A stretch of DNA of 26,663 bases from a virus, in the IMG/VR virus record IMGVR_UViG_3300028045_000081, positions 1 to 26,663 of that record, one strand, 5' to 3'. Under the pieces are notes generated by a model. It did no database searches. It saw only the letters and a list, made by a program, of their open reading frames with translations, and was not told the DNA's origin. Every line of letters starts with the position of its first letter. Position 1 is the stretch's first letter. Of this stretch, positions 10,895 to 24,387 are shown piece by piece. The translations under genes were made by a program, and so were the position numbers.

Positions 10895-10920
10895 TTATTT
10901 CTCCATTTTATATAGTGTAT

Positions 10921-11163
10921 CTATTTATTTATTTCATATTCCTCTTCGCTTATTTTTTTGTCATTATTCCAGTAAGATTTTTTCATGAGTTGACCATTAG
11001 AATAGTACAGCAAACGTTCTCCGTGTTTTTTGCCATTCTTCCAATAAGACTTTTCCATGAGTTGACCATCAGACCAATAGTATATGTATAGTCCTTTCCA
11101 CTTTATTCCTGATAACCAAATACTATATCCTCTAGTCATCTTCAATAGATTAAAACAGTTCAT
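10921..11163 (-). CDS. MNCF/MORN-repeat family protein A
   Basis: 80 residues. It starts with the family signature MNCFNLLKMTRG, then YSIWLSG, then two MORN_2/YwqK-like repeats (YYWSDGQLMEKSYWKNGKKH and YYSNGQLMKKSYWNNDKK), then the family C-terminal SEEEYE. Repeats of this sort fold as beta-hairpin ladders and occur in proteins annotated as YwqK-family antitoxins; what they bind here is unknown. The start overlaps the stop of the membrane-protein gene upstream (ATGA), so the two are coupled. It is one of eleven paralogues in the window. The family membership is certain; the function is not. Confidence 0.85.
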   Translation of the reverse strand: MNCFNLLKMTRGYSIWLSGIKWKGLYIYYWSDGQLMEKSYWKNGKKHGERLLYYSNGQLMKKSYWNNDKKISEEEYEINK

Positions 11164-11351
11164 TTCTTATCCTTTGGATCAGGTAGACCAATAATTCCAC
11201 ATATAATACCTACTACAGCAGCTCCAAAGCAGATAAGCTGCAATGGTTGTACTCCAATCATTCCCATAATAGTCATGTTAAGCAAGATAATAATAGCATT
11301 TGCTGTAATTAATATTTTAGGATTTGACAATTTTTTAATAATTTTACTCAT
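11160..11351 (-). CDS. Small two-segment membrane protein
   Basis: 63 residues, with hydrophobic segments at about 13-34 and 37-54 separated by a short polar turn, and a charged tail (PDPKDKK). The start at 11351 was preferred over 11381 because AAGGAG lies at a suitable distance upstream. It leads the leftward unit behind the TTGACA/TATACT promoter at 11390-11418. Its stop overlaps the ATG of MORN gene A, suggesting the two products are made together. Function unknown; a holin-like or superinfection-exclusion role would be a guess. Confidence 0.6.
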   Translation of the reverse strand: MSKIIKKLSNPKILITANAIIILLNMTIMGMIGVQPLQLICFGAAVVGIICGIIGLPDPKDKK

Positions 11352-11389
11352 AATACTTCTCCTTATAACAATTTTACTCATCTAATATA

Positions 11390-11418
11390 AGTATACTATA
11401 CAATTATATTAATGTCAA
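11390..11418 (-). promoter_or_regulatory. Sigma70-type promoter, TTGACA-17-TATACT
   Basis: Reading leftward, TTGACA (11413-11418) is separated by 17 bp from TATACT (11390-11395). It faces the membrane-protein/MORN A/70-aa unit and is divergent from the RuvC-like gene. Confidence 0.75.
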
Positions 11419-11459
11419 TAGAAAAAATAAATATTATTAAAGGAAGGGAGGAAGAAATA

Positions 11460-12104
11460 ATGGATTATGTAGTTTCAATTGATTGTTCAATAAATTCACC
11501 GGCAGTATGTGTATATGATATGGAGAATGATTTCTATCATTTATATTCATACACAGATAAGATACCAAAAAATTCAGTGATTAAATTTACAAAGGAAAAC
11601 TGTTCTATCTTTATAGAGAGAAAAATAAAAGAAGAAGACTATACAGATGATTTTACAAATACAACTAATAAAATACTAAAATTCATTGGTAGACATACAA
11701 CAAAAGAGTTTGTTATAGTATTAGAAGGCTACTCATATGGATCAAAAGGAAGATCTATATTTGATATTGCTGAACTCGGAGGAATATTAAAGTATAGACT
11801 TAAAGAAACTTTTAAAAATGCACATCTATTCATTGTTACTCCAAGTGAATGGAAAAAAGAAGTAGTAAAACATGGTAATGCTGATAAAGAAAAGATTGCT
11901 AATTATTTAATTGAGAATGATAATACATGGAGTTCAGTTCTAGATCATTTCTTGGAATTGGCCTTAGATGAAAAATTTGGAAAAAAGAGAGATCCAAGCA
12001 AGTTAAAAGATAAAATATATGAATCTCCTGTCAATGATGTAACGGATGCCTATTGTATATGTCAATACTTCTTAAATAAGCGTGCTCAGACTGTCTCAGA
12101 CTAA
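11460..12104 (+). CDS. RuvC-like Holliday junction resolvase / RNase H-fold nuclease
   Basis: 214 residues from the ATG at 11460, chosen because AGGAAGGGAGGA lies just upstream; the longer frame from 11412 has no such site. The RNase H-fold acidic residues are visible: D8 in VVSIDCS, E89 in IVLEGYSYG, and D193/D196 in VNDVTDAYC near the C-terminus. Between them is TPSEWKKEVVKHGNADKEKI, the segment that in RuvC-like proteins carries the P-x-x-K-K and G-N-A-D-K motif. RuvC-family enzymes cut four-way junctions; in phages they help resolve branched replicative DNA before packaging. It stands alone, divergent from the 11390 promoter and convergent with MORN gene B. The fold call is firm, the substrate less so. 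Confidence 0.78.
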   Translation: MDYVVSIDCSINSPAVCVYDMENDFYHLYSYTDKIPKNSVIKFTKENCSIFIERKIKEEDYTDDFTNTTNKILKFIGRHTTKEFVIVLEGYSYGSKGRSIFDIAELGGILKYRLKETFKNAHLFIVTPSEWKKEVVKHGNADKEKIANYLIENDNTWSSVLDHFLELALDEKFGKKRDPSKLKDKIYESPVNDVTDAYCICQYFLNKRAQTVSD

Positions 12105-12141
12105 CGAAACAATAAAACTGATAGCAGAGTATAGGTAAGGA

Positions 12142-12399
12142 CTATTCTACCCTATTTCCATCAATGTCGTATTGGATATAATCCTTAACTGAACCATTAG
12201 TATATATGCTAATTATAGAAAGTTGTCCGTTGTCATGATATACCACACAATTTCCGTGTTTATTTCCATCCTCCCAATAACATTTTTCATATAATTGGCC
12301 ATCATTATAATAATATATTAAACCTAGTCCTTCGTATTCTACTCCAGACAACCAAATATAGTCTCCTCTAGTCTTATTCAATACATCAAAACAGTTCAT
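12142..12399 (-). CDS. MNCF/MORN-repeat family protein B
   Basis: 85 residues: MNCFDVLNKTRGDYIWLSG head, one well-conserved repeat (IYYYNDGQLYEKCYWEDGNK), a second degenerate one (VVYHDNGQLSIISIYTNG) and a C-terminal end IDGNRVE that lacks the usual EEEY tail. GAGGAG precedes the ATG. It has its own promoter at 12427-12455 and is transcribed alone, toward the RuvC-like gene. The loss of the second-repeat EKSYW core suggests this copy is drifting from the rest. Confidence 0.82.
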   Translation of the reverse strand: MNCFDVLNKTRGDYIWLSGVEYEGLGLIYYYNDGQLYEKCYWEDGNKHGNCVVYHDNGQLSIISIYTNGSVKDYIQYDIDGNRVE

Positions 12400-12426
12400 A
12401 GTATCTCCTCATATTAAACTAATACT

Positions 12427-12455
12427 ATCATACTTGATAATTTCTATAATGTCAA
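12427..12455 (-). promoter_or_regulatory. Sigma70-type promoter, TTGACA-17-TATGAT
   Basis: Leftward TTGACA (12450-12455), 17-bp spacer, TATGAT (12427-12432), reading into MORN gene B. Divergent from the promoter of MORN gene C only 18 bp away. Confidence 0.75.
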
Positions 12456-12473
12456 TAGTTTTTAAGAAATAGT

Positions 12474-12502
12474 TTGACTTTATTAAAAATATGCTATATA
12501 CT
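12474..12502 (+). promoter_or_regulatory. Sigma70-type promoter, TTGACT-17-TATACT
   Basis: TTGACT (12474-12479), 17-bp spacer, TATACT (12497-12502), 33 nt before the ATG of MORN gene C. Confidence 0.75.
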
Positions 12503-12535
12503 TATATAGAGTTGATAAAATTTATGGAGTGGTTA

Positions 12536-12766
12536 ATGAATTGTTTTGAACTACTGAAAAGGACTTTACGAGAGGGTAATGGAATAATGTTATCTAGTCT
12601 TTATTTTTATTATCATCCTAATGGTCAACTATGGGAAAAATCTTATTGGGAGGATGGCAATAAACATGGTAAATATTTATTATGGTCTAAAAATGGTCAA
12701 CTATGGGAGAGGTCTTACTATAGGAATGGAAGAATATATGGGAAACGTTTAATATATAAACATTGA
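12536..12766 (+). CDS. MNCF/MORN-repeat family protein C
   Basis: 76 residues from the internal ATG at 12536, which has GGAG upstream and gives the family start MNCFELLKRT; the longer frame from 12491 would begin inside the promoter. Two repeats follow (YYHPNGQLWEKSYWEDGNKH and LWSKNGQLWERSYYRNGR). The protein ends abruptly in KRLIYKH without the EEEY tail. It is monocistronic behind its own sigma70-type promoter, and another such promoter overlaps its stop codon. Confidence 0.83.
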   Translation: MNCFELLKRTLREGNGIMLSSLYFYYHPNGQLWEKSYWEDGNKHGKYLLWSKNGQLWERSYYRNGRIYGKRLIYKH

Positions 12767-12791
12767 TATTATTAAAATTGTAGAGTATACT
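12763..12791 (+). promoter_or_regulatory. Sigma70-type promoter, TTGATA-17-TATACT
   Basis: TTGATA (12763-12768), 17-bp spacer, TATACT (12786-12791). It starts at the MORN C stop codon and serves the small HTH gene. Confidence 0.65.
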
Positions 12792-12825
12792 TTTAGTAGA
12801 TCATTTAAAATCAGGGGAGGAAAAC

Positions 12826-12978
12826 ATGTTAGACAGAATAAGAAAGAATTTTGGATCAGTATCGACATTAGCAAGACGATTGGACGTTAGTGGAGATGAA
12901 ATTTACTTGGCTATTGATGGTCATATGGAAAAGAGATCTTTACTCAAAAGAATATTAAGAGCTTTGAAAGATCTATAA
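12826..12978 (+). CDS. Small HTH-like DNA-binding protein
   Basis: 50 residues, with a strong GGGGAGG site 6 nt before the ATG and a sigma70-type promoter just upstream. The sequence FGSVSTLARRLDVSGDEIYL has the look of a Cro/XRE-type helix-turn-helix: a helix with ALA-like small residues, a turn around DVSGDE, then a recognition helix (EIYLAIDGH), followed by a basic C-terminal helix (RSLLKRILRALK). It is short enough to be just the DNA-binding domain. Its stop codon is embedded in the late-promoter motif of the next gene. It may regulate neighbouring early promoters, but the target is unknown. Confidence 0.6.
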   Translation: MLDRIRKNFGSVSTLARRLDVSGDEIYLAIDGHMEKRSLLKRILRALKDL

Positions 12979-12982
12979 ATAA
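12974..12982 (+). promoter_or_regulatory. T4-type late promoter (TATAAATAA)
   Basis: Exact TATAAATAA, 29 nt before the baseplate-gene ATG at 13012. The motif contains the stop codon of the preceding HTH gene. Confidence 0.6.
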
Positions 12983-13011
12983 AAGTAGTATAATACTTTA
13001 TGGAATAAATC

Positions 13012-13791
13012 ATGTCAGTAAAATTACAAAGAGAAACACAAGAATATATAGTTCCATTGGTTGAGAAGAGCTCCGAAGGAAGTAGAGTAAGCACAGGAGA
13101 ACTCCTCGGACAAGTAGCAGCTCTTGCTCTAACTGGTGCCGCTTCTGAATCAGTTGGTAGAACAAGAGAAGCATATATGAGAAACAATGCACAAAAGAAT
13201 GTGGATAAGCAGAATTACTATAATACTATCATTACAGACACACAAGGAGAAGATAGAACCATAGTAAATTATTTTTATGAAGCAACAGGCATACTAGACG
13301 AGAACGGAATCAACTTCGGAAATAATTGGTATATAGACTTCGGAAAGAATGAAACTTTAAAAGACGAGCAGATAAATATATTGAATGCATATACAACCGA
13401 AGTATCAATGCCTACAGTAGATATAGAAACAAATACAAATCCTCTTGGGTTTACTAAAAATGAAGATATATCAGGAATCAATTACGGAGATTTCTCAGTA
13501 ACTTTTATAATTGATAAGAAAAATCGTACTCATAGTGCTATAATGAATGTCATATCTGAGATGAAAAATAGAAAAAATGGTAGATATGGATATAAATCTA
13601 ACTATATGTTTAGATATATAGATGTAACCGTAAATGATTCTATCAATAATCCTGTACAACTATGGTCATTTGAAAACTGTATAATCAAATCAATATCTGA
13701 CTTGACATTAAATTATGGTGAGAGTGAAATGAAAACTTTCAGCTGTACATTTGGATATGATAGATTAAAAGGATTTAGCGGAATTTCTTAA
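13012..13791 (+). CDS. Tube-fold baseplate protein (T4 gp48/gp54-like)
   Basis: 259 residues. The C-terminal 150 residues carry a tail-tube-like strand pattern: AYTTEVSMPTVDIET, ISGINYGDFSVTFIIDKKNR, a helix (SAIMNVISEMKN), YMFRYIDVTV, and a terminal WSFENCIIKSISDLTLNYG then TFSCTFGYDRLK. This resembles the strand order of tube proteins such as gp19 and the tube initiators gp48 and gp54. The N-terminal 90 residues are an extra region with an Ala/Gly-rich helix (LLGQVAALALTGAASESVG). It most likely caps the baseplate and starts tube growth; an additional tube component is possible. Late promoter upstream; MORN gene D follows 20 nt after its stop. Confidence 0.65.
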   Translation: MSVKLQRETQEYIVPLVEKSSEGSRVSTGELLGQVAALALTGAASESVGRTREAYMRNNAQKNVDKQNYYNTIITDTQGEDRTIVNYFYEATGILDENGINFGNNWYIDFGKNETLKDEQINILNAYTTEVSMPTVDIETNTNPLGFTKNEDISGINYGDFSVTFIIDKKNRTHSAIMNVISEMKNRKNGRYGYKSNYMFRYIDVTVNDSINNPVQLWSFENCIIKSISDLTLNYGESEMKTFSCTFGYDRLKGFSGIS

Positions 13792-13811
13792 TGTTTTTGT
13801 GGAGGTCTAAT

Positions 13812-14150
13812 ATGAATTGTTTTGAATTATTAGAAAGAAAATATATTTTCTTAACCGATGGAGAAAAGGAAGCAACAGGAATCTGTATCGAATGGTTTCC
13901 TAATAATCAGATTAGATATAAAACATATCTAAACAATAATAAAAAGCATGGAACCACTTCAGTATTTAATAAGTGTGGAAGACTAATCGCCTGCTCTGAG
14001 TGGAAGAATGGAAGACGACACGGTAAATGTAATAGATGGTGGGGAAATGGTAATAAAAGAGAACATGGAGAATATATAAAAGGAAAAGCAGTAGGCGAAC
14101 ACATATTTTATTTCGAAGACGGATCTATCTGGACAAAAGAAGTTCATTAA
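13812..14150 (+). CDS. MNCF/MORN-repeat family protein D
   Basis: 112 residues from the ATG at 13812, which has GGAGG 6 nt upstream and gives the MNCFELLERK start. It is the most diverged copy: the WLSG segment becomes IFLTDGE, and the repeats (EWFPNNQIRYKTYLNNNKKH, then SVFNKCGRLIACSEWKNGRR, then RWWGNGNKREHGEYIKGKA) keep the G/N spacing but lose EKSYW. Unlike the others it has no sigma70-type promoter directly before it and lies 20 nt after the baseplate gene, so it may be expressed late by read-through. Confidence 0.75.
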   Translation: MNCFELLERKYIFLTDGEKEATGICIEWFPNNQIRYKTYLNNNKKHGTTSVFNKCGRLIACSEWKNGRRHGKCNRWWGNGNKREHGEYIKGKAVGEHIFYFEDGSIWTKEVH

Positions 14151-14167
14151 AAAATCAACAAAAACTC

Positions 14168-14196
14168 TTGACATTTAATTAAAAATATAGTATACT
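14168..14196 (+). promoter_or_regulatory. Sigma70-type promoter, TTGACA-17-TATACT
   Basis: TTGACA (14168-14173), 17-bp spacer, TATACT (14191-14196), 31 nt before the GTG of MORN gene E. Confidence 0.78.
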
Positions 14197-14227
14197 ATTA
14201 ATAGATAAATTTTATTAGAGGAATACC

Positions 14228-14638
14228 GTGAACTGTTTTAATGTGTTAGACAAGACCAGGAATTCAAGTATCACTATTAATTTAAGTAATAAAACTTGTG
14301 CTTGTATTGGATGGTGGGATAATAGATCACTGAAATACAAAACTTACTATAAGAATGAAAATAAATGGCCTATGTTCAATTGTGAGTTACACGGAACATA
14401 TTCCGTTTGGTATAGTGATGGTCAACTAAAAGAAAAGTCTTACTACATGAATGGTGGATTACATGGAGAAAGATTGGTATATTATTATACAGGTCAACTC
14501 ATGGAAAAATCTCATTGGAAGAATGGAAATCTACACGGAAAGTATTTGTGGTATCATGATAATGGTCAACTATGGAAAAAGTCTTATTGGAATAATGGCG
14601 AAGAAATCACTGAAGAGGAGTATAATGAATTGTTTTGA
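14228..14638 (+). CDS. MNCF/MORN-repeat family protein E
   Basis: 136 residues, starting at GTG (AGAGGA upstream) with MNCFNVLDKTR. After a longer variable head it has a degenerate unit (WWDNRSLKYKTYYKNENK) and three clear repeats: VWYSDGQLKEKSYYMNGGLH, VYYYTGQLMEKSHWKNGNLH and LWYHDNGQLWKKSYWNNGEE. It ends in the family tail ITEEEYNELF. The DNA of this tail, GAGGAGTATAATGAATTG, contains the ribosome-binding site and ATG of gene F in another frame, so E and F overlap by 14 nt and are translationally coupled. Confidence 0.85.
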   Translation: MNCFNVLDKTRNSSITINLSNKTCACIGWWDNRSLKYKTYYKNENKWPMFNCELHGTYSVWYSDGQLKEKSYYMNGGLHGERLVYYYTGQLMEKSHWKNGNLHGKYLWYHDNGQLWKKSYWNNGEEITEEEYNELF

Positions 14639-14816
14639 TACATTAAAAAAGACCAAAGGAGACTATATTTGGTTGTCGTTATCAGATGGAAGATCTCTTT
14701 GTATGTACTGGTACCATATTAACGATCAAATAACGGAAAAGACATACTTTTATCGTAATAACATAGTAAGTCAAACTGCGTGGGACTGTAACGGAGTTGT
14801 GACACATAAATTATAA
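14625..14816 (+). CDS. MNCF/MORN-repeat family protein F (short)
   Basis: 63 residues beginning MNCFDTLKKTKGDYIWLSLSDG, with one weak repeat (YWYHINDQITEKTYFYRNN) and no EEEY tail. The start at 14625 is fixed by the family signature and by GAGGAG inside the end of gene E. It appears to be a truncated or minimal copy produced by tandem duplication of E. Its end runs into the late promoter for the gp26-like gene. Confidence 0.75.
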   Translation: MNCFDTLKKTKGDYIWLSLSDGRSLCMYWYHINDQITEKTYFYRNNIVSQTAWDCNGVVTHKL

Positions 14817-14820
14817 ATAA
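14812..14820 (+). promoter_or_regulatory. T4-type late promoter (TATAAATAA)
   Basis: Exact TATAAATAA beginning in the last codons of MORN gene F and 31 nt before the gp26-like ATG. Confidence 0.6.
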
Positions 14821-14851
14821 TAACATAAAAGTCGTAGGAGGACAAAATCAA

Positions 14852-15637
14852 ATGAAAATTAATGACAAATTACTTAGCATCTTTGAAGAAGATTGGAATT
14901 TAATTACACTTCCGTTTTCAGATAAGGAAATCGAATGTAAAGCTTATACACATAAAGCAGTGAAAAATATTATTCAATCTGCTGTTAAAATGAAAGATAG
15001 AAAGAAAGGACACGTAAAACAATCATTGAATACACTTAGAAATCTTGTACAGAGTTGTATTAAACCAGATGAGACAGGTGAGCCGATCGACGTTAGAAAT
15101 CTTTTAATTGGTGACTTTACTTATGTAATGTTATATCTCAAGACTATTTCAAGTCCTGATAAAAGTAAATATAAAGCTGAATGTGCAAATGATCAGTGTA
15201 AATTTATTTACACAATTGATTTTGATATAGAAACTCTAGAATTCTTGAACAAAGAAAATCTCAAGAACGAACGAAAGATAGATCTCAAACAGAATAGCAA
15301 TGTATTTTCAATTGAGATGGGAGAATATACTTTTAATACTATGTTAGATAATGCTGATTTATTTGGAGCAGAGATCGAAACAGGCGATGAGATAACCAAA
15401 TTCTACTGTTCTTTTATCAATAGTATTATTGTTGGTGATACTGTATTCGAATCAAACGATCTTAATGTAGCAACCAAAATGGCTTTCCTGGATAAGCTAT
15501 CAGATAATGATTTACTTCCACTTGTAAAATATATAGAAGAACAACCAAAATTATTCTGGAAGACTACATTCGAATGTCCTATATGTGGTGAAAAGAATGA
15601 ATTAGTATTGGAGAATACCCTCGATTTTTTCTCCTAA
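14852..15637 (+). CDS. gp26-like baseplate hub / tail assembly chaperone protein
   Basis: 261 residues. The overall pattern, with LPFSDKEIECKAYTHKAVKN near the start, a mid CANDQCKFIYTIDFDIETLE and the C-terminal ECPICGEKNELVLENTLDFF, fits the T4 gp26-type baseplate family, whose members carry similar cysteine pairs followed by beta strands. GTAGGAGG lies upstream of the ATG. It precedes the tape measure gene by about 1.1 kb with small genes between. The last codons, GAT TTT TTC TCC TAA, contain a -1 slippery heptamer, and the 57-codon ORF after it is in the -1 frame, so a minority fusion product of about 320 residues is predicted. That arrangement is the hallmark of G/GT-type tail chaperones. 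Confidence 0.7.
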   Translation: MKINDKLLSIFEEDWNLITLPFSDKEIECKAYTHKAVKNIIQSAVKMKDRKKGHVKQSLNTLRNLVQSCIKPDETGEPIDVRNLLIGDFTYVMLYLKTISSPDKSKYKAECANDQCKFIYTIDFDIETLEFLNKENLKNERKIDLKQNSNVFSIEMGEYTFNTMLDNADLFGAEIETGDEITKFYCSFINSIIVGDTVFESNDLNVATKMAFLDKLSDNDLLPLVKYIEEQPKLFWKTTFECPICGEKNELVLENTLDFFS

Positions 15638-15659
15638 TGGCCAGCACCTATGGGGCCAT
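15625..15659 (+). promoter_or_regulatory. Candidate -1 programmed ribosomal frameshift signal
   Basis: Slippery heptamer T TTT TTC at 15625-15631 is in the correct phase (X XXY YYZ) of the gp26-like frame. After 5 nt comes a perfect stem ATGGCC (15637-15642) with GGCCAT (15654-15659) and an 11-nt loop. The 0-frame stop is at 15635-15637. A -1 slip continues as CTC CTA ATG into the 57-codon ORF. Slippery site, 5-nt spacer and stem-loop match the standard layout; stem stability was not calculated. Confidence 0.7.
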
Positions 15660-15810
15660 CTCCGATTACTATGAGTGTTTACATGTATTCACTTATCACA
15701 TGGGTTGGACAGTAAGTGAAGTAGAGAAACTTCTTCCATACGAAGTTGAAATCTTTTTACTGAACTTTGCTAAACAGAAAAAAGAAGAAGATGACAAAAA
15801 TAATAAATAA
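15637..15810 (+). CDS. Small tail-chaperone C-terminal ORF (-1 frame extension)
   Basis: 57 codons (MASTYGAISDYYECLH... ending KEEDDKNNK). Its core VFTYHMGWTVSEVEKLLPYE has the helical 'gWt..ev..lpy.e' look of the T part of GT tail chaperones. It lies in the -1 frame of the gp26-like gene; its ATG overlaps that gene's TAA (TAATG) and has no clear ribosome-binding site of its own, so frameshifting, re-initiation, or both could make it. It could also correspond to T4 gp51; I cannot decide. The fused product would recruit the tape measure protein during tube assembly, if the analogy holds. Confidence 0.65.
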   Translation: MASTYGAISDYYECLHVFTYHMGWTVSEVEKLLPYEVEIFLLNFAKQKKEEDDKNNK

Positions 15811-15842
15811 TGCTTGACATTTACTTTAAAATGTTGTAATAT
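15802..15842 (+). promoter_or_regulatory. Late-variant AATAAATAA and sigma70-type promoter
   Basis: AATAAATAA (15802-15810) is followed at once by TTGACA (15814-15819), 17 bp and TAATAT (15837-15842; TGTAAT at a 15-bp spacing is an alternative). Both read toward the gene at 15877, so it may be expressed from either promoter class. Confidence 0.45.
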
Positions 15843-15876
15843 TAAATTAGATACAATAATTAAGAGGAATTTGAGA

Positions 15877-16359
15877 ATGAAACTTATTAAGAAAGAAGGA
15901 AAATGGAAGTTAAGTGAAAATATCGAAACAGACAGAAAAGAATTACTTAATCGAATAGAGAAAATAAACTCCACTATTCATACTCTTGATAAAAGAGAGA
16001 AAGAATCGGCAAAGAGAAAAATAATATCTTTGCAGAAAGATATGGAAAAATTAGATAAAAAAATAAATGCTGAGAAATATAGTCACAAGGATATTAAAAA
16101 AATATTTAAAAAAATTGGATTAGAGTCATCAAAATCAAAATCTTCTGGATCAATTAGAGGATTTTCTAAGCAGACCAGAGGTTACGAAATTGATAAAGTT
16201 GTTGGTGACTATGTAAAACTTTATAATATTACTGTTGAAGAATTTGAAACCATATTAAACGAATTTAAAAAATCAAACATCAATATATCATCATCCAAAG
16301 GACCTTTCAAGAGTGTCAATGGATTTTCATATGAGATAGTAATTAAAAATAATAAATAA
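15877..16359 (+). CDS. Hypothetical Lys-rich coiled-coil protein
   Basis: 160 residues from the ATG at 15877, supported by AGAGGAA upstream; the longer frame from 15814 would begin in the -35 box. Residues about 20-65 are a heptad-like charged helix (NRIEKINSTIHTLDKREKES and onward), followed by a Ser/Lys linker and a C-terminal alpha/beta part (VVGDYVKLYNITVEEFETIL ... GFSYEIVI). The first residues, MKLIKKEGKWKLSE, resemble those of the next gene, MIKILKKDDKYYISE, suggesting a shared N-terminal module. No known family recognised. It lies inside the tail-length module. Confidence 0.6.
   Translation: MKLIKKEGKWKLSENIETDRKELLNRIEKINSTIHTLDKREKESAKRKIISLQKDMEKLDKKINAEKYSHKDIKKIFKKIGLESSKSKSSGSIRGFSKQTRGYEIDKVVGDYVKLYNITVEEFETILNEFKKSNINISSSKGPFKSVNGFSYEIVIKNNK
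16351..16359 (+). promoter_or_regulatory. Late promoter variant (AATAAATAA)
   Basis: One mismatch to TATAAATAA; overlaps the stop of the preceding gene and lies 29 nt before the next ATG, the same spacing as the exact copies. Confidence 0.42.
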
Positions 16360-16388
16360 TTATATATTAAAAACATAAAGAGATAGTT

Positions 16389-16691
16389 ATGATTAAAATA
16401 CTAAAGAAAGATGATAAATACTACATTTCAGAAGAAGACATAAACGAAGCAGTAAAAAAGATTACTGTTGTTAGAGACGGAAAGAAAAAGAAAGTTAAGA
16501 AGTCAACTAAGAAAGGATATAAGATAGTTGATGGAAAAGAAGTTAAACAAAGTTCAACAGAGAAAAGAAAGTTATCTAAATCAGCTAAGAAAGCAGCTAA
16601 GAAAAGAAAGGGCAAACAAAGTGTTGCTAAAAGAAAAAGAGCAAAGTCTATTGCTCGAAGAGGATCTCTCAAGACTATTTCAAAAAAATAA
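16389..16691 (+). CDS. Highly basic Lys/Arg-rich protein
   Basis: 100 residues. A short N-terminal module (MIKILKKDDKYYISEED) shared with the upstream gene is followed by a tail dominated by Lys, Arg, Ser and Ala, including KKSTKKGYK, RKLSKSAKKAAKKRKG and KRKRAKSIARRGS. Such composition resembles histone H1-like tails or nucleic-acid-condensing proteins. Lying directly before the tape measure gene, it may be a virion internal protein, a DNA-binding protein, or may interact with the acidic coiled coil of the tape measure. Nothing catalytic is visible. The frame is convincing because it has its own late-type motif upstream and spaced Lys-rich repeats rather than a random poly-A translation. Confidence 0.62.
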   Translation: MIKILKKDDKYYISEEDINEAVKKITVVRDGKKKKVKKSTKKGYKIVDGKEVKQSSTEKRKLSKSAKKAAKKRKGKQSVAKRKRAKSIARRGSLKTISKK

Positions 16692-16707
16692 CGAACTTAT
16701 AAAGTTA

Positions 16708-16716
16708 AATAAATAA
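16708..16716 (+). promoter_or_regulatory. Late promoter variant (AATAAATAA)
   Basis: One mismatch to TATAAATAA, 29 nt before the tape measure ATG. Confidence 0.42.
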
Positions 16717-16745
16717 TAGTAATATAAACTATTATAGAAATAACT

Positions 16746-18917: not shown

Positions 18918-18927
18918 TACTCTTCCT

Positions 18928-19206
18928 CTAATCCTTTAATAAAAAATTTAATTCGTCGCTTACACCATTAACGTATCTGGATTTCTCCCATAACTCTCCA
19001 TTATTCGAGTAAGTTGTAAACTTTCCGTGTCTAACTTCACCCTTATAATAACCCTTTTTGAAAAGAATTCCGTTTTCCCACCACTCCAAATATAATTCTA
19101 TTCCATCTGATAAGGGAATGAATAACCTACTTCTGTTTTCATATTCTTCCTCAGTCAACCACATACTTTTTCCTTTGGTCTTATTCAGTATATCAAAACA
19201 ATTCAT
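18928..19206 (-). CDS. MNCF/MORN-repeat family protein G
   Basis: 92 residues from the ATG at 19206, with GAGG upstream, giving MNCFDILNKTKGKSMWLTEE; the longer frame from 19224 adds MIIEVN and would exclude the ribosome-binding site. It has a single-residue-class variation of the head (SDGIELYLEWW) and two repeats (EWWENGILFKKGYYKGEVRH and TYSNNGELWEKSRYVNGV). It is monocistronic behind the TTGACT/TATACT promoter at 19234-19262 and ends 11 bp from the tape measure stop, tail to tail. Confidence 0.82.
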   Translation of the reverse strand: MNCFDILNKTKGKSMWLTEEEYENRSRLFIPLSDGIELYLEWWENGILFKKGYYKGEVRHGKFTTYSNNGELWEKSRYVNGVSDELNFLLKD

Positions 19207-19233
19207 ATTAACCTCAATAATCAATCTAATACA

Positions 19234-19262
19234 AGTATACTACACAACTATAATAAAGTCAA
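19234..19262 (-). promoter_or_regulatory. Sigma70-type promoter, TTGACT-17-TATACT
   Basis: Leftward TTGACT (19257-19262), 17-bp spacer, TATACT (19234-19239), for MORN gene G. It is back to back with the late motif at 19270. Confidence 0.75.
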
Positions 19263-19269
19263 TGAGTAT

Positions 19270-19278
19270 TATAAATAA
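19270..19278 (+). promoter_or_regulatory. T4-type late promoter (TATAAATAA)
   Basis: Exact TATAAATAA 32 nt before the gp15-like ATG; 7 bp from the -35 box of the divergent promoter. Confidence 0.62.
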
Positions 19279-19310
19279 TATCAGATAAAATTATAAAATA
19301 GGAAACTAAC

Positions 19311-20834
19311 ATGGAACAGTACTTTTTTGACAGTCAACGCAAGACTATAGTAGCATTCTCTAAGCTTTTTACCGATGTAATTGTGAGGAGAGAGAATTCA
19401 ACTAATATAGATGTTCCAATAATATATGCAAATAAACAAAAATTCTATCAAAGAATAAATGATAATAGATCTTCCCAAGGAATAACTCTACCAGCTATTT
19501 CATTATTTAACACTGATATTGAATATAATCTGGAAAGACAAAAAAGTAATCTGGCCAAGTCTATACTTAAGATTTCCAAGAATGACTCTGATATACTTTA
19601 TCATATTCCAAATCCAAGTCCCGTCACAATGCTATTCGAAGTATTAATCAAATCTAAATACTATTTTGATCATAGATACATTACTGAGACTATTATTCCT
19701 AGATTTCAACCAACACAACATCTACTACTTAATCTTATTCCTGAAATGAGTGTACAATGTTCTGTTCCAGTCACTCTTACAAGCATACAAAATGATTTCC
19801 AAACAGAGTTGGATGAGGATCCGAATTCAGTAAGATCATTTGAAACTACTCTCACGTTCGAAGTCGAATCTTTTATATTTCCTCCTCTTACTGAAAAATC
19901 TATTATAAAAACTATTAAGTCTTATGGTAACGATGTTTTATTGACTGTTGAGAACGAGTATTCCCACGATGAGCTGATAAACAGTAAATTACATACTATA
20001 ACAGACAATGCGACTAATCTAGCAGCAGAGATCAATATAGCCGCTACAACAGCAGATAGATACAATCATTTCGTCATACAAGACTTTACAACTGAAATAG
20101 GAACTTATGGAGACAAATTCAAAATAACAAATGAAGAAAATGAAGAATTCGAGTATCTATTTGAATATGATAACGGAGAATTATATTCAGCCGATCAATT
20201 TGTTCCTGATACACTTACATTAAATAAGACTAATAATATTTTTATTCATATCCCTTTCATTAAAGAAAATAAATCAATGAAACTATTTGTTAAGACTTAT
20301 CATGGAGATTCTTATATAAAAGCTGAAGAAATTGTTCCTATATACAATTCTTTTAATACTAGAACACTCAGAGACCTTTATATACAGGAAAAAAAGTCAG
20401 ACTCTATAGTTTACATTGATAATTCTGTTTTATTCGTTAGAGACAGTTCTGGTTCGTCTATTGATGATATACTACGTGTTTCCTCAGTGAATGCTTTAAG
20501 TGGATCAAAAACTATTAGTATAGGACTATCAACTTTCACTTGGGAAGCTGAAAAATTCATATGTGGAGTGTCTGATGAAAATGAATCAGAACTCTATATA
20601 AAAACAACTACAACACAAGACGAATATGAAGTGTTTGTTGCTGCTACTTCAAAAGGAACATTAACAAAAGCTAGTATAAGTTTAATTAGATTTGATTATG
20701 ATGGAACTGATTGGGACGTATATGTTAATGATCAGACATTAAGTTTTACTGATAGTGATTTCATATCACCTTTTATCTGTTGGAATGGTACTAGTATTGC
20801 TCAGTTTGATTATATTAAAGGTTATACTGTCTAA
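19311..20834 (+). CDS. Tail sheath stabiliser/terminator (T4 gp15-like) with long C-terminal extension
   Basis: 507 residues. The first 190 match the gp15 pattern: YFFDSQRKTIVAFSKLFTDV, then VPIIYANKQKFYQRI, then GITLPAISLFNTDIEYNLER, then PNPSPVTMLFEVLIKSKYYF and ETIIPRFQPTQHLLLNLIPE. In T4, gp15 (272 aa) forms a hexamer that caps the tail and binds the neck. Here about 230-300 extra residues follow: a mixed beta region from about 300 and a final Thr/Ser-rich beta segment (FEVFVAATSKGT-like, ending IAQFDYIKGYTV), reminiscent of small carbohydrate-binding or decoration domains. The N-terminal call is good; the extension is unassigned. Its stop overlaps the stop of MORN gene H. Confidence 0.75.
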   Translation: MEQYFFDSQRKTIVAFSKLFTDVIVRRENSTNIDVPIIYANKQKFYQRINDNRSSQGITLPAISLFNTDIEYNLERQKSNLAKSILKISKNDSDILYHIPNPSPVTMLFEVLIKSKYYFDHRYITETIIPRFQPTQHLLLNLIPEMSVQCSVPVTLTSIQNDFQTELDEDPNSVRSFETTLTFEVESFIFPPLTEKSIIKTIKSYGNDVLLTVENEYSHDELINSKLHTITDNATNLAAEINIAATTADRYNHFVIQDFTTEIGTYGDKFKITNEENEEFEYLFEYDNGELYSADQFVPDTLTLNKTNNIFIHIPFIKENKSMKLFVKTYHGDSYIKAEEIVPIYNSFNTRTLRDLYIQEKKSDSIVYIDNSVLFVRDSSGSSIDDILRVSSVNALSGSKTISIGLSTFTWEAEKFICGVSDENESELYIKTTTTQDEYEVFVAATSKGTLTKASISLIRFDYDGTDWDVYVNDQTLSFTDSDFISPFICWNGTSIAQFDYIKGYTV

Positions 20835-21304
20835 GCATCTATTATAGGAAGACTTTTCCTATATTCTTCCTCGGTAATTTTTTCACCATCCTTCCAATAA
20901 GATTTTTCATGTAGTTGACCGTTAGAATAATACATCAGACGTTCTCCGTGCATATTCCCATTCTTCCAATAAGATTTTTCACTGAGTTGGCCGTTAGAAT
21001 AATACCACAGAGATTCTCCATGTCTTTTGCCATTCTTCCAATAAGACTTTTCCCGAAGTTGACCATTAGAAAAATACCTCAGACGTTCTCCGTGCATATT
21101 CCCATTCTTCCAATAAGATTTTTCACTGAGTTGGCCGTTAGAATAATACATCAGACGTTCTCCGTGCATATTCCCATTCTTCCAATAAGATTTTTCGTGT
21201 AGTTGACCATTATCGTGATATTCTAGATGTAGACCTACGTATAGTATTCCCGATACCCATAAATCATCGTCTATAGTCTTATTCAGTAAATCAAAACAAT
21301 TCAT
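20831..21304 (-). CDS. MNCF/MORN-repeat family protein H (five repeats)
   Basis: 157 residues, the longest copy. The head MNCFDLLNKTIDDDLWVSG is followed by five near-identical 24-residue repeats of the type YYSNGQLSEKSYWKNGNMHG and the tail KITEEEYRKSLPIIDA. Repeats 2 and 5 differ by only a few residues, so the array was probably duplicated recently. AGGAG precedes the ATG and the TTGACT/TATAAT promoter lies at 21334-21362. Its stop overlaps the stop of the gp15-like gene tail to tail. Family assignment is certain; binding partner unknown. Confidence 0.87.
   Translation of the reverse strand: MNCFDLLNKTIDDDLWVSGILYVGLHLEYHDNGQLHEKSYWKNGNMHGERLMYYSNGQLSEKSYWKNGNMHGERLRYFSNGQLREKSYWKNGKRHGESLWYYSNGQLSEKSYWKNGNMHGERLMYYSNGQLHEKSYWKDGEKITEEEYRKSLPIIDA
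20843..20863 (+). terminator. Possible bidirectional terminator hairpin
   Basis: TATAGGAA (20843-20850) pairs perfectly with TTCCTATA (20856-20863) across a 5-nt loop, just after the gp15-like stop and within the 3' end of MORN gene H. The tail TTCTTCC is only partly T-rich, so termination strength is doubtful. Confidence 0.35.
20891..21250 (-). repeat. Five tandem 72-bp repeats inside MORN gene H
   Basis: The string cttccaataa (plus strand) recurs at 20891, 20963, 21035, 21107 and 21179, exactly 72 bp apart; each unit codes one 24-residue MORN-like repeat. The same unit, at the same 72-bp period, occurs in gene J (for example 23016 and 23088). Such direct repeats allow gain or loss of units by recombination. 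Confidence 0.9.
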
Positions 21305-21333
21305 CTGATACTCCTAAAATTTATTCTAATACT

Positions 21334-21362
21334 ATTATACTATATAAATTCCTCTAAGTCAA
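21334..21362 (-). promoter_or_regulatory. Sigma70-type promoter, TTGACT-17-TATAAT
   Basis: Leftward TTGACT (21357-21362), 17-bp spacer, TATAAT (21334-21339), for MORN gene H; back to back with the late motif at 21368. Confidence 0.78.
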
Positions 21363-21367
21363 GAGTT

Positions 21368-21376
21368 TATAAATAA
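21368..21376 (+). promoter_or_regulatory. T4-type late promoter (TATAAATAA)
   Basis: Exact TATAAATAA 33 nt before the gp16-like ATG and 5 bp from the -35 box of the divergent promoter. Confidence 0.62.
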
Positions 21377-21409
21377 TATTAAAGATTGATTTCTTATTGG
21401 AGATTTATA

Positions 21410-21829
21410 ATGGAAAACGAATTTAAACAAGTCGATGAAAAACTTGGATTCGAAGAAGAGAAAGAAGAAATAGTGGAGACTACTAAAAAGGAAGAAATAC
21501 AAGTAGAAGTCTCTGAGTTTCATGATACAGAAATAAAAAATGATTATCAAAAAATAAGAAAAGATATCATAAATAGTATTAACACAATTAATAGTGCTGT
21601 AGAGATCATTGAAGAGTCAATGAAAGTAGCCGACGAGAGATTTCTTGCTAGACAGGCAGAAGTAATCGGCACACTAATGAAAGTTGGTGTTGATATAAGA
21701 AAAGAACTAATGAATTTACATAAATCAAGACAAGAATTACTATATCAAGAAGAAGACGAAGATAAGCCTGAAGGTAAAGTAATAACATTAAAAGACGTAA
21801 AGAGTAAAATCAAGGGAGAAATGTTTTAA
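21410..21829 (+). CDS. Terminase small subunit (T4 gp16-like)
   Basis: 139 residues from the ATG at 21410, with TTGGAG upstream; the frame from 21386 is longer but lacks a site. An acidic N-terminal 40 residues lead into NDYQKIRKDIINSINTINSA, then VADERFLARQAEVIGTLMK and KELMNLHKSRQELL. This mirrors the T4 gp16 core, in which a 'DYg.vR' start, a long helical hairpin, 'r..EV..tLM' and 'eil.LHK' occur in the same order. Small terminase forms a ring that recognises DNA and stimulates the large subunit. T4 also has 16 directly after 15, supporting the call, but the large terminase (17) does not follow here. Confidence 0.68.
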   Translation: MENEFKQVDEKLGFEEEKEEIVETTKKEEIQVEVSEFHDTEIKNDYQKIRKDIINSINTINSAVEIIEESMKVADERFLARQAEVIGTLMKVGVDIRKELMNLHKSRQELLYQEEDEDKPEGKVITLKDVKSKIKGEMF

Positions 21830-22290
21830 TGTCACAAAATTTAGTGAAAAATAAGTATCAGATGGTTTTCGACGATAGTCTATATAATCTATCACAAGAA
21901 ATCATATCTGTAACACTACCATCAATTTCTTTATCTACAGAAGAGAAAAGAACTCCTCTTGGTGGAAAGTTTTTTGAGTCTGGCGAGAATATCGATTATA
22001 GTCCTCTATCAATTCAATTCGTTGTTGGATCTGATATGAGTAACTATATTAATCTAATTGATTGGGTATACGAGCTATACAATCCAATGGAACTGACTAT
22101 ATCCGATAAAGAAATACAAGGATCTCTATTAGTATATGATGTGAGCGGTAATCTAAGAAGAACATTTGATTTTCAAAATCTAAGACCTACTGATATATCC
22201 GAGATAGAATTCGCATCAAATGACACTGATAACAATTACGAAGTATGCACAGTATCATTTGTTTTTGATCATATGAGAGTTTATAAATAA
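21829..22290 (+). CDS. Tail-tube-fold protein, probably tail/baseplate tube component
   Basis: 153 residues. NKYQMVFDDSLYNLSQEIIS leads to VTLPSISLSTE, LSIQFVVGSDMSNYINLIDW, LLVYDVSGNLRRTFDFQNLR, PTDISEIEFASND and a final CTVSFVFDHMRVYK strand. The order of strands plus the 'f.nl.PTdiseieF' segment is like gp19/gp54-type tube proteins, so this is the third such protein in the window. It could be a tube initiator (gp48/gp54 counterpart) or a tail completion protein. The ATG overlaps the stop of the gp16-like gene (TAATG), so both are expressed together. Followed by the UUCG terminator. Confidence 0.62.
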   Translation: MSQNLVKNKYQMVFDDSLYNLSQEIISVTLPSISLSTEEKRTPLGGKFFESGENIDYSPLSIQFVVGSDMSNYINLIDWVYELYNPMELTISDKEIQGSLLVYDVSGNLRRTFDFQNLRPTDISEIEFASNDTDNNYEVCTVSFVFDHMRVYK

Positions 22291-22294
22291 TATT

Positions 22295-22322: not shown

Positions 22323-22326
22323 GATT

Positions 22327-22348: not shown

Positions 22349-22355
22349 CCTTTAT

Positions 22356-22487: not shown

Positions 22488-22665
22488 TATAAATCTTCTC
22501 CTTCTTTAACCATTCAAGCATGCTGATATTTAGTTCTTTTAGAAGCTCTTGCGTTTCTTCTGTAATTATTTTCTTCATTTCTTCGACGGAATCAATACTT
22601 TGGTATTGCTTGTATTGCTCCAAATCTTCTTTTGTAAAAAAGTTTTTTAATCTATCATCAGACAT
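22474..22665 (-). CDS. Small acidic helical hypothetical protein
   Basis: 63 residues, rich in Glu and Lys, predicted almost all helix (EDLEQYKQYQ, EEMKKIITEETQELLKELNI). Strong AAAGGAGGG lies before the ATG. The start overlaps the end of MORN gene I by 8 nt and its end overlaps the zinc microprotein gene, so it is translationally coupled in the operon. No family recognised. Confidence 0.62.
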   Translation of the reverse strand: MSDDRLKNFFTKEDLEQYKQYQSIDSVEEMKKIITEETQELLKELNISMLEWLKKEKIYNVSL

Positions 22666-22915
22666 TTTTTCCCTCCTTTAGTATCTTATACTCTTCTTCG
22701 GTTATCTTCTTTCCATCTTTCCAATAATATTTGTCCACAAGCTTACCATCATAATAGTATCTTGTACACTTCCCAACTCTCTCACCATCTTTCCAGTAAG
22801 ACTTTTCGCATAATTGTTTGTTAGGATAATAATCTAAATAAAGACTAATGGAATTAAATAAAGGTATAGAAAATATTTTACCTACAGTCTTATCTAGCAG
22901 ATTTAAACAATTCAT
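22658..22915 (-). CDS. MNCF/MORN-repeat family protein I
   Basis: 85 residues. The head is MNCLNLLDKTVG (Leu for Phe at position 4), then IFSIPLFNSISLYLDYY. Two repeats follow (YYPNKQLCEKSYWKDGERV and YYYDGKLVDKYYWKDGKK) and the tail KITEEEYKILKEG. The start lies inside the 3' end of gene J: J ends ITEEEYNELFKSAR and the same DNA read in another frame gives GAGGAA...ATGAATTG for I. The overlap is 26 nt. This is the same junction as E/F. Confidence 0.84.
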   Translation of the reverse strand: MNCLNLLDKTVGKIFSIPLFNSISLYLDYYPNKQLCEKSYWKDGERVGKCTRYYYDGKLVDKYYWKDGKKITEEEYKILKEGKNV

Positions 22916-23348
22916 TATATTCTTCCTCAGTGATTTCTAATCCATCATTGAAAAACGATACACATAATGATCCATCGTAATTCCGCCATATACATTTTCC
23001 ATGATTCTGACCATCTTTCCAATAAGATTTTTCCTTTAACTGACCATCAGAATTATATATTATACGATCTCCATGTTTCTTTCCATTCTTCCAATAAGAT
23101 TTTTCCCATAGTTGACCATTATAATAATATTCTAAATATTCTCCGTGTCTTTTGCCGTTCTTCCAATAAGATTTTTCCTTTAACTGACCATTATCATAAT
23201 ACCACAAACGTTCACCATGATTCTGACCATCTTTCCGATAAGATTTTTCCCATAGTTGACCGTTATCACAGTACCGGTGTATGATAATAGATCTACCGTC
23301 TGATAACGGTATGCAAAGAGATTTTACTAATACATCAAAACAGTTCAT
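22890..23348 (-). CDS. MNCF/MORN-repeat family protein J (multi-repeat)
   Basis: 152 residues: head MNCFDVLVKSLCIPLSDGRS, then five repeats including YYDNGQLKEKSYWKNGKRHG, YYNGQLWEKSYWKNGKKH and YNSDGQLKEKSYWKDGQNHG, then a degenerate unit (GSLCVSFFNDGLE) and tail ITEEEYNELFKSAR. The start overlaps the stop of the preceding gene (TAATG). The 72-bp unit period is the same as in gene H, and J and H share long near-identical DNA stretches. Likely a partner of I by duplication. Confidence 0.86.
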   Translation of the reverse strand: MNCFDVLVKSLCIPLSDGRSIIIHRYCDNGQLWEKSYRKDGQNHGERLWYYDNGQLKEKSYWKNGKRHGEYLEYYYNGQLWEKSYWKNGKKHGDRIIYNSDGQLKEKSYWKDGQNHGKCIWRNYDGSLCVSFFNDGLEITEEEYNELFKSAR

Positions 23349-23593
23349 TACGCTTCAGCCTCTTCCATGAAATTTTTGTATAGATAATCTAAATCAAAAT
23401 ATGTATCTATGATAAACTGTAATCCAAAGTGGGAAAGTTCATTTGGTCTACCCATTTCACTTATAACTCGTGACATTGTATATCCTTCATCATTCAATTC
23501 CATTATAACACAGTCACCATCTCGTTCCATAACTGTATAGAAATGATTGATTATAGCATTCTTCATAACGATTAATTCTCTAGTTATTTTCAT
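23348..23593 (-). CDS. Hypothetical protein
   Basis: 81 residues from the ATG at 23593, which has AAAGGAG upstream; the longer frame from 23611 would start upstream of that site. Predicted alpha/beta, acidic at the C-terminus (YKNFMEEAEA), with the conserved-looking core DCVIMELNDEGYTMSRVISE. No metal site or membrane segment. Its start overlaps the end of the preceding operon gene and its stop overlaps MORN gene J. No family recognised. Confidence 0.6.
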   Translation of the reverse strand: MKITRELIVMKNAIINHFYTVMERDGDCVIMELNDEGYTMSRVISEMGRPNELSHFGLQFIIDTYFDLDYLYKNFMEEAEA

Positions 23594-23945
23594 TATTAAT
23601 CTCCTTTGCATCTATTGCTAAACCTGCATCAATCCAGTTTCGTTGATCTACACCAATTTCATCAAGATAATCGACTGATTCTATTGATGTGATAGTATTT
23701 ATCATCGTTAGCATAAAGTATTTCTCTGTCTCTCTTTGTGTCATATCCTCAAGGCGGCGGAGGATGGGTTTACAAGTTTCTGGCTGTCCATTGTATAAAA
23801 AACACGTTTCACACTCGATCAGCAAGCTAAAGCCTTTCTTGTTCTCCCAAACCTTTACACCAGTAAGCCTATGGATTTCATCATCACACATAATATTTTT
23901 CCCTATCAACCTTCCCCAATCCTGCGGCGTTAATTTATCTTTCAC
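23580..23945 (-). CDS. Hypothetical protein with Cys motif
   Basis: 121 residues, GTG start with AGGAGAT upstream. It contains three cysteines close together (ECETCFLYNGQPETCKP), following a VKVWENKKGFSLLIE beta segment, then a helical region (TQRETEKYFMLTMINTITS) and an acidic end. The C-x2-C...C arrangement may bind a metal but lacks an obvious fourth ligand. It lies in the early-type operon. No family recognised. Confidence 0.6.
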   Translation of the reverse strand: MKDKLTPQDWGRLIGKNIMCDDEIHRLTGVKVWENKKGFSLLIECETCFLYNGQPETCKPILRRLEDMTQRETEKYFMLTMINTITSIESVDYLDEIGVDQRNWIDAGLAIDAKEINNENN

Positions 23946-23948
23946 TAT

Positions 23949-24125
23949 CTATCTCCTAAACAATCTCATTAAATTATCCATTATACTTCTCTTACCATTC
24001 AAGTGTATTTCTAGATCTTTTTCACATACTTTCGAACACACCCCATACGTTAAATTAGTTGACTCTGATACAACTTTGAATTTCTTTTCTTTGAAATAAT
24101 CTCCACAAGATGCACATCTACACAT
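23949..24125 (-). CDS. Small zinc-finger-like protein
   Basis: 58 residues from the ATG at 24125, because AGGAG lies between this ATG and the alternative start at 24143. MCRCASCGDYFKEKKF gives Cys 2, 4 and 7, and YGVCSKVCEKDLE gives two more, consistent with a treble-clef or FCS/MYM-type zinc site (second pair C-x3-C, as in FCSKKC of the nuclease at 6899). The C-terminus is basic and helical (MDNLMRLFRR). Likely an adaptor or host-interaction protein; unproven. Confidence 0.6.
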   Translation of the reverse strand: MCRCASCGDYFKEKKFKVVSESTNLTYGVCSKVCEKDLEIHLNGKRSIMDNLMRLFRR

Positions 24126-24135
24126 ATTAAATCTC

Positions 24136-24387
24136 CTAGTCATATTTTACTAATTGTTTATACTCTTCCAATGTTACGAATATTCCCTCATTCCAATACG
24201 ATACGCCGATGAAAGATCCTTTTCTTGTCCACATTAAACATCTTCCATGAGCCTTTCCATTAAATCGTTCCACTATATCCTCTATCTGGCCATTGCTATG
24301 CCAGTGATAAAGAATATCACTATTTTCTGACTTAGGAATAACCAATCCATCTCCTTTAGTCTTATCTAATAGATTAAAACAATTCAT
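24136..24387 (-). CDS. MNCF/MORN-repeat family protein K
   Basis: 83 residues: MNCFNLLDKTKGDGLVIPK head, then two diverged repeats (YHWHSNGQIEDIVERFNGKA and LMWTRKGSFIGVSYWNEGI) and the tail VTLEEYKQLVKYD, which keeps the (E)EEY position. It lacks EKSYW in its first repeat, making it with D the most drifted copy. It is the third gene of the leftward operon, with its ATG overlapping the stop of the gene before it. Confidence 0.78.
   Translation of the reverse strand: MNCFNLLDKTKGDGLVIPKSENSDILYHWHSNGQIEDIVERFNGKAHGRCLMWTRKGSFIGVSYWNEGIFVTLEEYKQLVKYD

Follow-up and report, generated by a model that had tools for sequence, protein, structure and literature searches.

Compact phage genomes seldom contain large multigene families. 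The MORN2 proteins of Fusobacterium have been described as multi-copy expansions with 1-27 repeats (PMC12940168). These expansions, together with the other Pfam MORN_2 or 'YwqK family antitoxin' proteins, have the same repeat as the family considered here, which is carried by the IMG/VR virus record IMGVR_UViG_3300028045_000081 (positions 1 to 26,663; this whole stretch of 26,663 nucleotides is called the window below). In the window, eleven genes, named by their left ends, code for short MORN_2-type proteins with a constant MNC start and lie dispersed through a phage tail module. One report found MORN repeats to be 37 times more frequent in long marine reads than in assemblies, and pointed out that short-read assemblies easily lose repeat-rich genes (PMC9238414). 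A single MORN_2 protein in a phage would be unremarkable. The literature searched, from which subscription journals and preprints were mostly absent, yielded no account of phages with a MORN_2 family of many paralogs; a family of fifteen members with a selected tag, placed by its promoters mostly outside the late programme, is undescribed there.

Results

The original prediction had listed eleven genes that start with MNC(F/L)xxL and carry one to five repeats, and this was confirmed by the open reading frame (ORF) list, a similarity search and an alignment. All 11 ORFs were intact and homologous at the left ends proposed, with products of 63-157 aa. When the record was searched with the 20831 protein, precisely the 11 known loci were returned (E 5e-109 to 8e-6); the match in 13812 extended beyond its stop codon, and the other 10 were free of stops. 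Since the members share 34-57% identity with this 157-aa protein and all 11 loci are present in a sister contig, the family stands far above chance. In the alignment of members, M1, N2, C3, L7 and one Gly were invariant in all 11, and F4 was kept in 10. The MNC start of 12536 and of 13812 is an internal ATG within a slightly longer open frame. The constant start is followed by MORN_2-like units of 24 residues, the number of which was counted with a simple score (Table 1). The EEEY ending, said to occur often, was C-terminal in five members (10921, 14228, 20831, 22658 and 22890); 18928 has EEEY close to its N-terminus, and 24136 has a C-terminal LEEY.

The members were indeed located on both strands between tail genes (seven minus, four plus) and occupied six intervals among the tail and packaging genes. 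Their GC content was 0.325, compared to 0.326 in ten other genes. The sister contig IMGVR_UViG_3300027996_000062 (44.6 kb) is near-identical and holds all 11 loci and four more, giving fifteen members; none was found in its last 17 kb. The open frames of 11/11 members in the window and 15/15 in the sister were intact.

Pfam MORN_2 (PF07661) matched 9 of the 11 members, and its cut-off was exceeded by only four of them (10921, 14228, 20831 and 22890). Among the 15 members of window and sister, the gathering score was exceeded by seven, six fell below it (E up to 1.6e-4) and two were unmatched. The N-terminal tag lies outside the Pfam match, and the family as a whole is held together by the mutual similarity of its members.

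AlphaFold models were obtained with an input of 15 sequences. The 20831 model (pLDDT 93.4, pTM 0.82) consists of stacked beta hairpins; residues 3-9 form a helix of low confidence, the first ten residues scoring 59, and a second helix (EEEYRKS) spans 145-151. The model of 13812, the member least like 20831, reached a pLDDT of 86.7 and a pTM of 0.73, with 52 for its first ten residues. Such low confidence is as expected of a free linear motif. In the predicted models, the fold was retained even at 25-35% identity. A Foldseek search of PDB placed MORN1 structures at the top (E 1.4e-6) with modest TM-scores (0.3-0.5), and the best 50 of 855 matches in a viral library included giant-virus MORN proteins and an uncultured Caudovirales 'MORN variant' (41% identity). 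The members are thus predicted to be MORN-type solenoids of beta hairpins, flanked by a flexible helix at the N-terminus and an EEEY helix at the C-terminus; the MORN_2 type of the repeats, proposed originally, is borne out by the Pfam matches, and a structured protein by these confident models.

Across the 15 paralogs, non-synonymous (pN) and synonymous (pS) change amounted to 0.12 and 0.58 in codons 2-7, and to 0.46 and 0.57 after codon 11, where pN is inflated by the gappy repeat alignment. Silent sites of the tag vary freely and its amino acids do not, so the tag is kept as protein; it is under protein-level selection. An origin of the MNC start as a by-product of DNA copying was rejected, the silent sites being saturated. 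In 34 repeat units, the frame N-G-Q-L-x-E-K-S-Y-W was conserved, and positions 8, 24, 22, 3, 17 and 18 were the most variable (entropy 2.8-3.7 bits); the framework is kept while some surface positions are highly variable. Over all columns of the units, pN was 0.41 and pS 0.55.

Two promoter classes were distinguished. The T4 late promoter TATAAATA (PMC1524935) occurred ten times on the plus strand, nine of them 35-42 nt before ATGs of the tail region (5374, 5639, 6231, 10107, 13012, 14852, 19311, 21410 and 24918). Of the other matches, the tenth plus-strand site is at the end of 21829, and the two on the minus strand fall within genes 2764 and 1484. No exact TATAAATA was found before the sheath and tape measure genes, nor within 120 nt upstream of any of the 11 members. 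A sigma-70-type site with at least 10/12 matches directly precedes 5 of the 11 members (12142, 12536, 14228, 18928 and 20831). Such a site was found within 120 nt of 5 of the 32 other genes (1484, 8149, 10107, 11160 and 24585), two of which lead runs containing members. When gene runs, which we infer from spacing along with operon status, are counted, ten members lie behind sigma-70-type promoters, five directly and five more via a run: 10921 is reached via 11160, which has its own site, 14625 overlaps 14228, and 24136, 22890 and 22658 belong to a minus-strand run headed by the site at 24870. Three of the five best textbook sigma-70 sites in 18.7 kb are within 100 nt before a member (chance approximately 2e-4), and the other two lead runs with members. 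Terminator-like sites numbered 8 against 5.6 expected, none of them systematically behind members.

The sites share an extended motif, aaactcTTGACt-N16/17-TATANT-agtattaga, built from nine seeds (seven in the window, two in the sister). Left-one-out scores, which near-identical promoter copies among the seeds raise, were 46, 38, 34, 26, 31, 26, 7.6 (12474), 17 and 37 bits, compared to maxima of 7-14 in four Markov control sequences. Beyond the seeds, 14 bits were exceeded in the window by 15814+ (20.7) and 12763+ (16.3, ahead of the small ORF 12827), and the sister-only sites include 30117- (23.8). The motif stands back to back with a late promoter at 19262, 21362 and 24870, and in the sister at 24607 and 26173. 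In the window, these units (19234-19277, 21334-21375 and 24843-24885) consist of a minus-strand sigma-70-type and a plus-strand late promoter a few bases apart. A fused late/early pattern in viral contigs was seen in 15 stretches, of which one was the sister and the rest were judged chance; a search for members in the other 14 and one further contig gave 0/15. In T4-like phages, early promoters are reported generally to precede novel ORFs, and late promoters only late-gene orthologs (PMC1524935). Since this is so, the members are probably early, as judged from promoter type.

In two tandem pairs the DNA coding for EEEYNELF has a second use, providing the following gene with its ribosome-binding site and MNC start. 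At the junction of members 5 and 6, ACTGAAGAGGAGTATAATGAATTGTTTTGA reads TEEEYNELF-stop in one frame, and in the next frame GAGGAG followed by ATGAATTGTTTTGA makes the ribosome-binding site and start of member 6. The genes 22890 and 22658 are joined likewise, with the weaker GAGGAAGA. In the sister-only members 27529 and 27218, GAGGAG precedes an ATG sharing one base with the stop codon. The idea that EEEY serves solely as a ribosome-binding site was rejected, because 20831 retains it at its C-terminus despite having no follower, and the model shows a helix there. Since EEEY is kept at the ends of members without such a follower, a role in the protein is suggested as well.

Scattered substitutions apart, the shared 24 kb of window and sister were grouped by us into seven structural differences (Table 1). 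Four of them strike members, which make up 14% of the sequence (p approximately 0.01). The substitution cluster in 20831 is a judgement call, as other genes were also substituted (15 in 4047, 9 in 19311 and 8 in 5639); without it, three of six differences are in members (p approximately 0.04). Seven of the 11 members were identical between the genomes, as were the sheath, three tube genes, the hub, the tape measure and the small terminase. With gapped members left out, the members had 6 synonymous and 6 non-synonymous substitutions, and other genes 32 and 18, counts that are too few for selection tests. The paralogs recombine, as the 452-bp deletion and the resulting chimeric member demonstrate. 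The family had been pictured as expanding, which is only half borne out: its genes are in flux, and the sole event with an inferable direction was a loss. Window 15811-16345, a 534-bp segment flanked by 16-bp direct repeats and absent from the sister, holds a 181-aa ORF starting from TTG with its own promoter-like site, and had an AcrF10 NCBIfam match below the cut-off (15.3 of 28 bits).

When the longest member was compared with 50,697 phage records, only two had a relative at E 1e-5, a Helicobacter equorum prophage (three overlapping MORN_2 ORFs) and Vibrio phage 2.275.O; such MORN_2 families therefore look mainly like a feature of uncultivated phages. Among 72,556 plasmid records there were eight, six of them from Cetobacterium, Fusobacterium or Ilyobacter. 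Viral contigs gave 19 loci in 16 contigs, with the MNC tag only in the sister among the stretches examined. The tag was seen solely in this lineage in the collections searched, in line with the expectation of a family specific to related phages. In 84,980 bacterial and archaeal species, the pattern MNCF[DNE][LVI]Lx[KR][TS] gave 9 matches and no relative, and a repeat-based scan gave 121 matches and one relative, a lipoprotein-like ORF in a metagenome-assembled genome, whose neighbours look Bacteroidota and give no host clue. With sheath and tube queries, the sister was the sole contig recovered.

In several other viral contigs, short MORN_2 genes form arrays that have constant ends of their own. 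The contig IMGVR_UViG_3300031963_008158 (G004) has 45 short MORN_2 ORFs in 35 kb (80185-115661; 46 matches in loci L014 and L016, one shared), arranged mostly head to tail; a 4-nt overlap (ATGA) was present in 31 of 35 neighbouring pairs. Its constant ends are MNSKDITPRNDKGE ... KEKIYYI, and the neighbours include a DNA transfer protein and a phage-type sigma factor. TAnnTTTG sites before some of its ORFs resemble the Bacteroidota promoter consensus. Other viral contigs (loci L013, L017 and L029) hold long MORN_2 ORFs of up to 1668 aa with a common KKLFIPR-type N-terminal stretch, and the MORN_2-like proteins encoded by L021 (8212-10144), probably those of a eukaryote virus, have an N-terminus that by eye resembles an F-box. 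The T4 tube family was not found in the 11 other records tested.

From PHROG and tblastn matches, the carrier is a distant T4-type myophage with sheath, tube, hub, sheath stabiliser and small terminase (Table 1). The T4 tail tube family (PHROG 45) occurs three times, at 10107-10628 (E 7e-40), 13012-13791 (E 1e-14) and 21829-22290 (E 5e-22); three tube paralogs in one tail module were likewise present in the sister. Window 1484-5321 contains three consecutive paralogs of 424-427 aa with repeated FDGRYIY-type stretches, beta-propeller-like by eye and perhaps fibre proteins, the first of which had no PHROG match. PADLOC gave no match for 10 proteins (three of them members), and NCBIfam nothing over the cut-off for seven (five of them members).

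Table 1. Members, junction, promoters, neighbouring genes and sister differences in the window
Feature	Position	Strand	Remarks
Member 1	10921..11163	-	80 aa, 2 repeats, ends SEEEYEINK; 4-nt overlap with 11160-11381
Member 2	12142..12399	-	85 aa, 2 repeats; chimera of two sister paralogs via 452-bp deletion
Member 3	12536..12766	+	76 aa, 2 repeats
Member 4	13812..14150	+	112 aa, 3 repeats, least like 20831; late gene run after tube paralog 13012
Member 5	14228..14638	+	136 aa, GTG start, 3 repeats, ends TEEEYNELF
Member 6	14625..14816	+	63 aa, 1 repeat; begins within final 14 nt of member 5; no Pfam match
Member 7	18928..19206	-	92 aa, 1 repeat
Member 8	20831..21304	-	157 aa, 5 repeats; AlphaFold solenoid, pLDDT 93.4
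Member 9	22658..22915	-	85 aa, 2 repeats; begins within final 26 nt of member 10
Member 10	22890..23348	-	152 aa, 4 repeats, ends TEEEYNELFKSAR
Member 11	24136..24387	-	83 aa, 1 repeat; no Pfam match; similarity to 20831, E 1.7e-8
Dual-coding junction, members 5/6	14609..14638	+	ACTGAAGAGGAGTATAATGAATTGTTTTGA
Sigma-70-type promoter of 11160-11381, then member 1	11390..11418	-	
Sigma-70-type promoter, member 2	12427..12455	-	
Sigma-70-type promoter, member 3	12474..12502	+	weak extended-motif fit, 7.6 bits when left out
Sigma-70-type promoter, members 5 and 6	14168..14196	+	
Sigma-70-type promoter, member 7	19234..19262	-	back to back with late promoter of 19311
Sigma-70-type promoter, member 8	21334..21362	-	back to back with late promoter of 21410
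Sigma-70-type promoter of run 24833-22474 (members 11, 10, 9)	24843..24870	-	
Late promoter of tube paralog 13012	12974..12981	+	TATAAATA; by position also member 4
Late promoter of hub gene 14852	14812..14819	+	TATAAATA; overlaps end of member 6
T4-type tail and packaging genes, members in between	8149..22290	+	PHROG/tblastn
Sheath	8149	+	27% identity to Pseudomonas phage Astolliot
Tail tube	10107	+	PHROG/tblastn
Tube paralogs	13012, 21829	+	PHROG/tblastn
Hub	14852	+	PHROG/tblastn
Tape measure	16746	+	PHROG/tblastn
Sheath stabiliser	19311	+	PHROG/tblastn
Small terminase	21410	+	PHROG/tblastn
Endolysin	25156		PHROG/tblastn
RuvC-like nuclease	11412		PHROG/tblastn
Homing endonuclease-like gene	6899-8122		PHROG 3339, E 1e-25; internal repeats of SIETCQNRYGVEHYSQTEE type; directly precedes sheath gene
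Difference 1	5634		1 nt, intergenic
Difference 2	member 10921		sister +6 nt, in EEEY stretch
Difference 3	member 12142		452-bp deletion giving the chimera; breakpoint in shared 17-bp stretch
Difference 4	15814 ORF		present/absent between 16-bp repeats
Difference 5	member 20831		substitution cluster near 21098-21130
Difference 6	member 22658		1 nt; in sister fused in frame to next ORF
Difference 7	23594-23908		small early-side gene; unrelated replacement in sister

Discussion

Since the members apparently follow a different, probably earlier programme than the tail genes, they are likelier to be host-handling tools than particle parts. We favour the reading that they are a private family of accessory proteins, probably early, which act as adaptors or decoys when the phage takes over the host or counters its defences; we consider its prospects about even. 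The constant flexible N-terminal helix (MNCFxxLxKT) would dock on one common partner, of host or phage; about half of the members have a constant predicted C-terminal helix, ITEEEYxxL, in addition. The variable solenoid surface may, as originally suggested, contact different host or defence proteins. One phage would thus hold a set of related adaptors or decoys, and this set is altered by recombination between paralogs and by tandem copies. Should host proteins be bound by the members, a single shared partner would be expected from the constant tag, and the targets would be given by the variable surface. Approximately 14% of the 24-kb tail region is spent on this one family, which by its promoters is mostly outside the tail programme.

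Several results weigh against this reading. Member 13812 follows the tube paralog 13012 and its late promoter, with a weaker extended-motif match at 12763+ also upstream; the original view of non-structural, early proteins is supported by promoter for most members and not for this one. Promoter-like sites were not in excess overall (116 against 104.4 expected, standard deviation 8.7), the 12536 promoter fits the extended motif poorly, and the scores of the others profit from the near-identical copies. The motif also precedes non-family genes (15814, 12827, sister 24249-24554 and, more weakly, 28922-30079), so that it characterises a programme in which the family has a large share, not the family itself. 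Members shared by the two genomes did not differ by any whole repeat unit, and seven of 11 were identical; the suggestion that repeat number is the variable gained no support. Variation at repeat positions 19-24 arises partly from last units becoming ITEEEY, and the 8 of 24 repeat columns with pN above pS (1, 2, 3, 11, 15, 18, 22 and 24) form no clear pattern and do not prove a diversifying face. Defence-system profiles matched none of the three members given to them.

In the main competing explanation, the members may be YwqK-type antitoxins or immunity proteins. Their solenoids would bind and block toxins of the host, whether polymorphic, contact-dependent or of the abortive-infection kind, and different paralogs would serve against different toxin variants. 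Their repeat is MORN_2, and plasmid and viral records give proteins with this repeat the label 'YwqK family antitoxin'. ywqJ-ywqK is listed among the LXG toxin/antitoxin pairs of B. subtilis (PMC8321402), and in Campylobacter jejuni the operon that a T4-like phage induces most strongly is reported to include a YwqK-like gene (PMC6024767). Nevertheless, no toxin gene beside members was recognised by PHROG, PADLOC or NCBIfam among the subset of neighbours scanned, and the tag lies outside the MORN_2 match. Moreover, the antitoxin label of MORN_2 is based on few tested proteins, and we regard this explanation as unlikely. A virion-associated or tail-assembly role, with genes native to their location, would agree with the position of the members among tail genes and with 13812 behind its late promoter; it is very improbable given that 7/11 members lie on the strand opposite the tail genes and 10/11 behind sigma-70-type promoters.

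The family could also be selfish or neutral, spreading by tandem duplication and recombination and persisting because the late genes tolerate insertion between them of cassettes that bring along a promoter and a ribosome-binding site. Start/stop overlaps favour head-to-tail copies, the paralogs recombine (seven members unchanged and four structurally altered between genomes), and pN approaches pS outside the tag, although the alignment inflates pN there. However, all frames are intact in both genomes, the tag is maintained at the protein level and the predicted fold survives at low identity, which makes such an origin decidedly improbable. A wider reading, that several unrelated phage lineages keep private repertoires of small solenoid binders with a lineage-specific tag and variable repeat faces, is in our opinion unlikely; there, start/stop overlaps would permit tandem copying, and recombination would diversify binding against host defences.

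Among the closest known systems, several uncultivated-phage contigs (G002, G004, G007, G012 and G015) and the Helicobacter equorum prophage likewise have several short paralogs in which the ends are constant and the repeats vary; start/stop overlaps between tandem genes, as in the window, occur in G004, G002 and G015. However, these arrays have other constant ends (MNSKDITPRNDKGE...KEKIYYI in G004) and run long and head to tail, whereas the members here are scattered cassettes. Among the best 50 of 855 matches in the viral library, giant-virus MORN proteins (Orpheovirus, Hyperionvirus and others) have the closest predicted folds and many paralogs per virus, but they belong to eukaryotic viruses, show no MNC tag and have approximately 18-30% identity. 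Most Fusobacterium MORN2 proteins are described as having signal sequences (PMC12940168), whereas the phage members have a short cytosolic-looking tag and, unlike them, sit behind phage promoters inside a phage tail module. With a moron cassette the members share a promoter of their own (5/11 directly, 5 via a run), and neither an own terminator nor deviating GC was seen. Arbiol et al. (2010) reportedly described mobile regulatory cassettes of T4-type phages. The novel ORFs behind early promoters of T4-type phages are likewise inserted among conserved genes, according to an account of these phages (PMC1524935). In contrast to both, many cassettes here are one homologous family inside the late tail module, and several of their promoters stand back to back with a late promoter.

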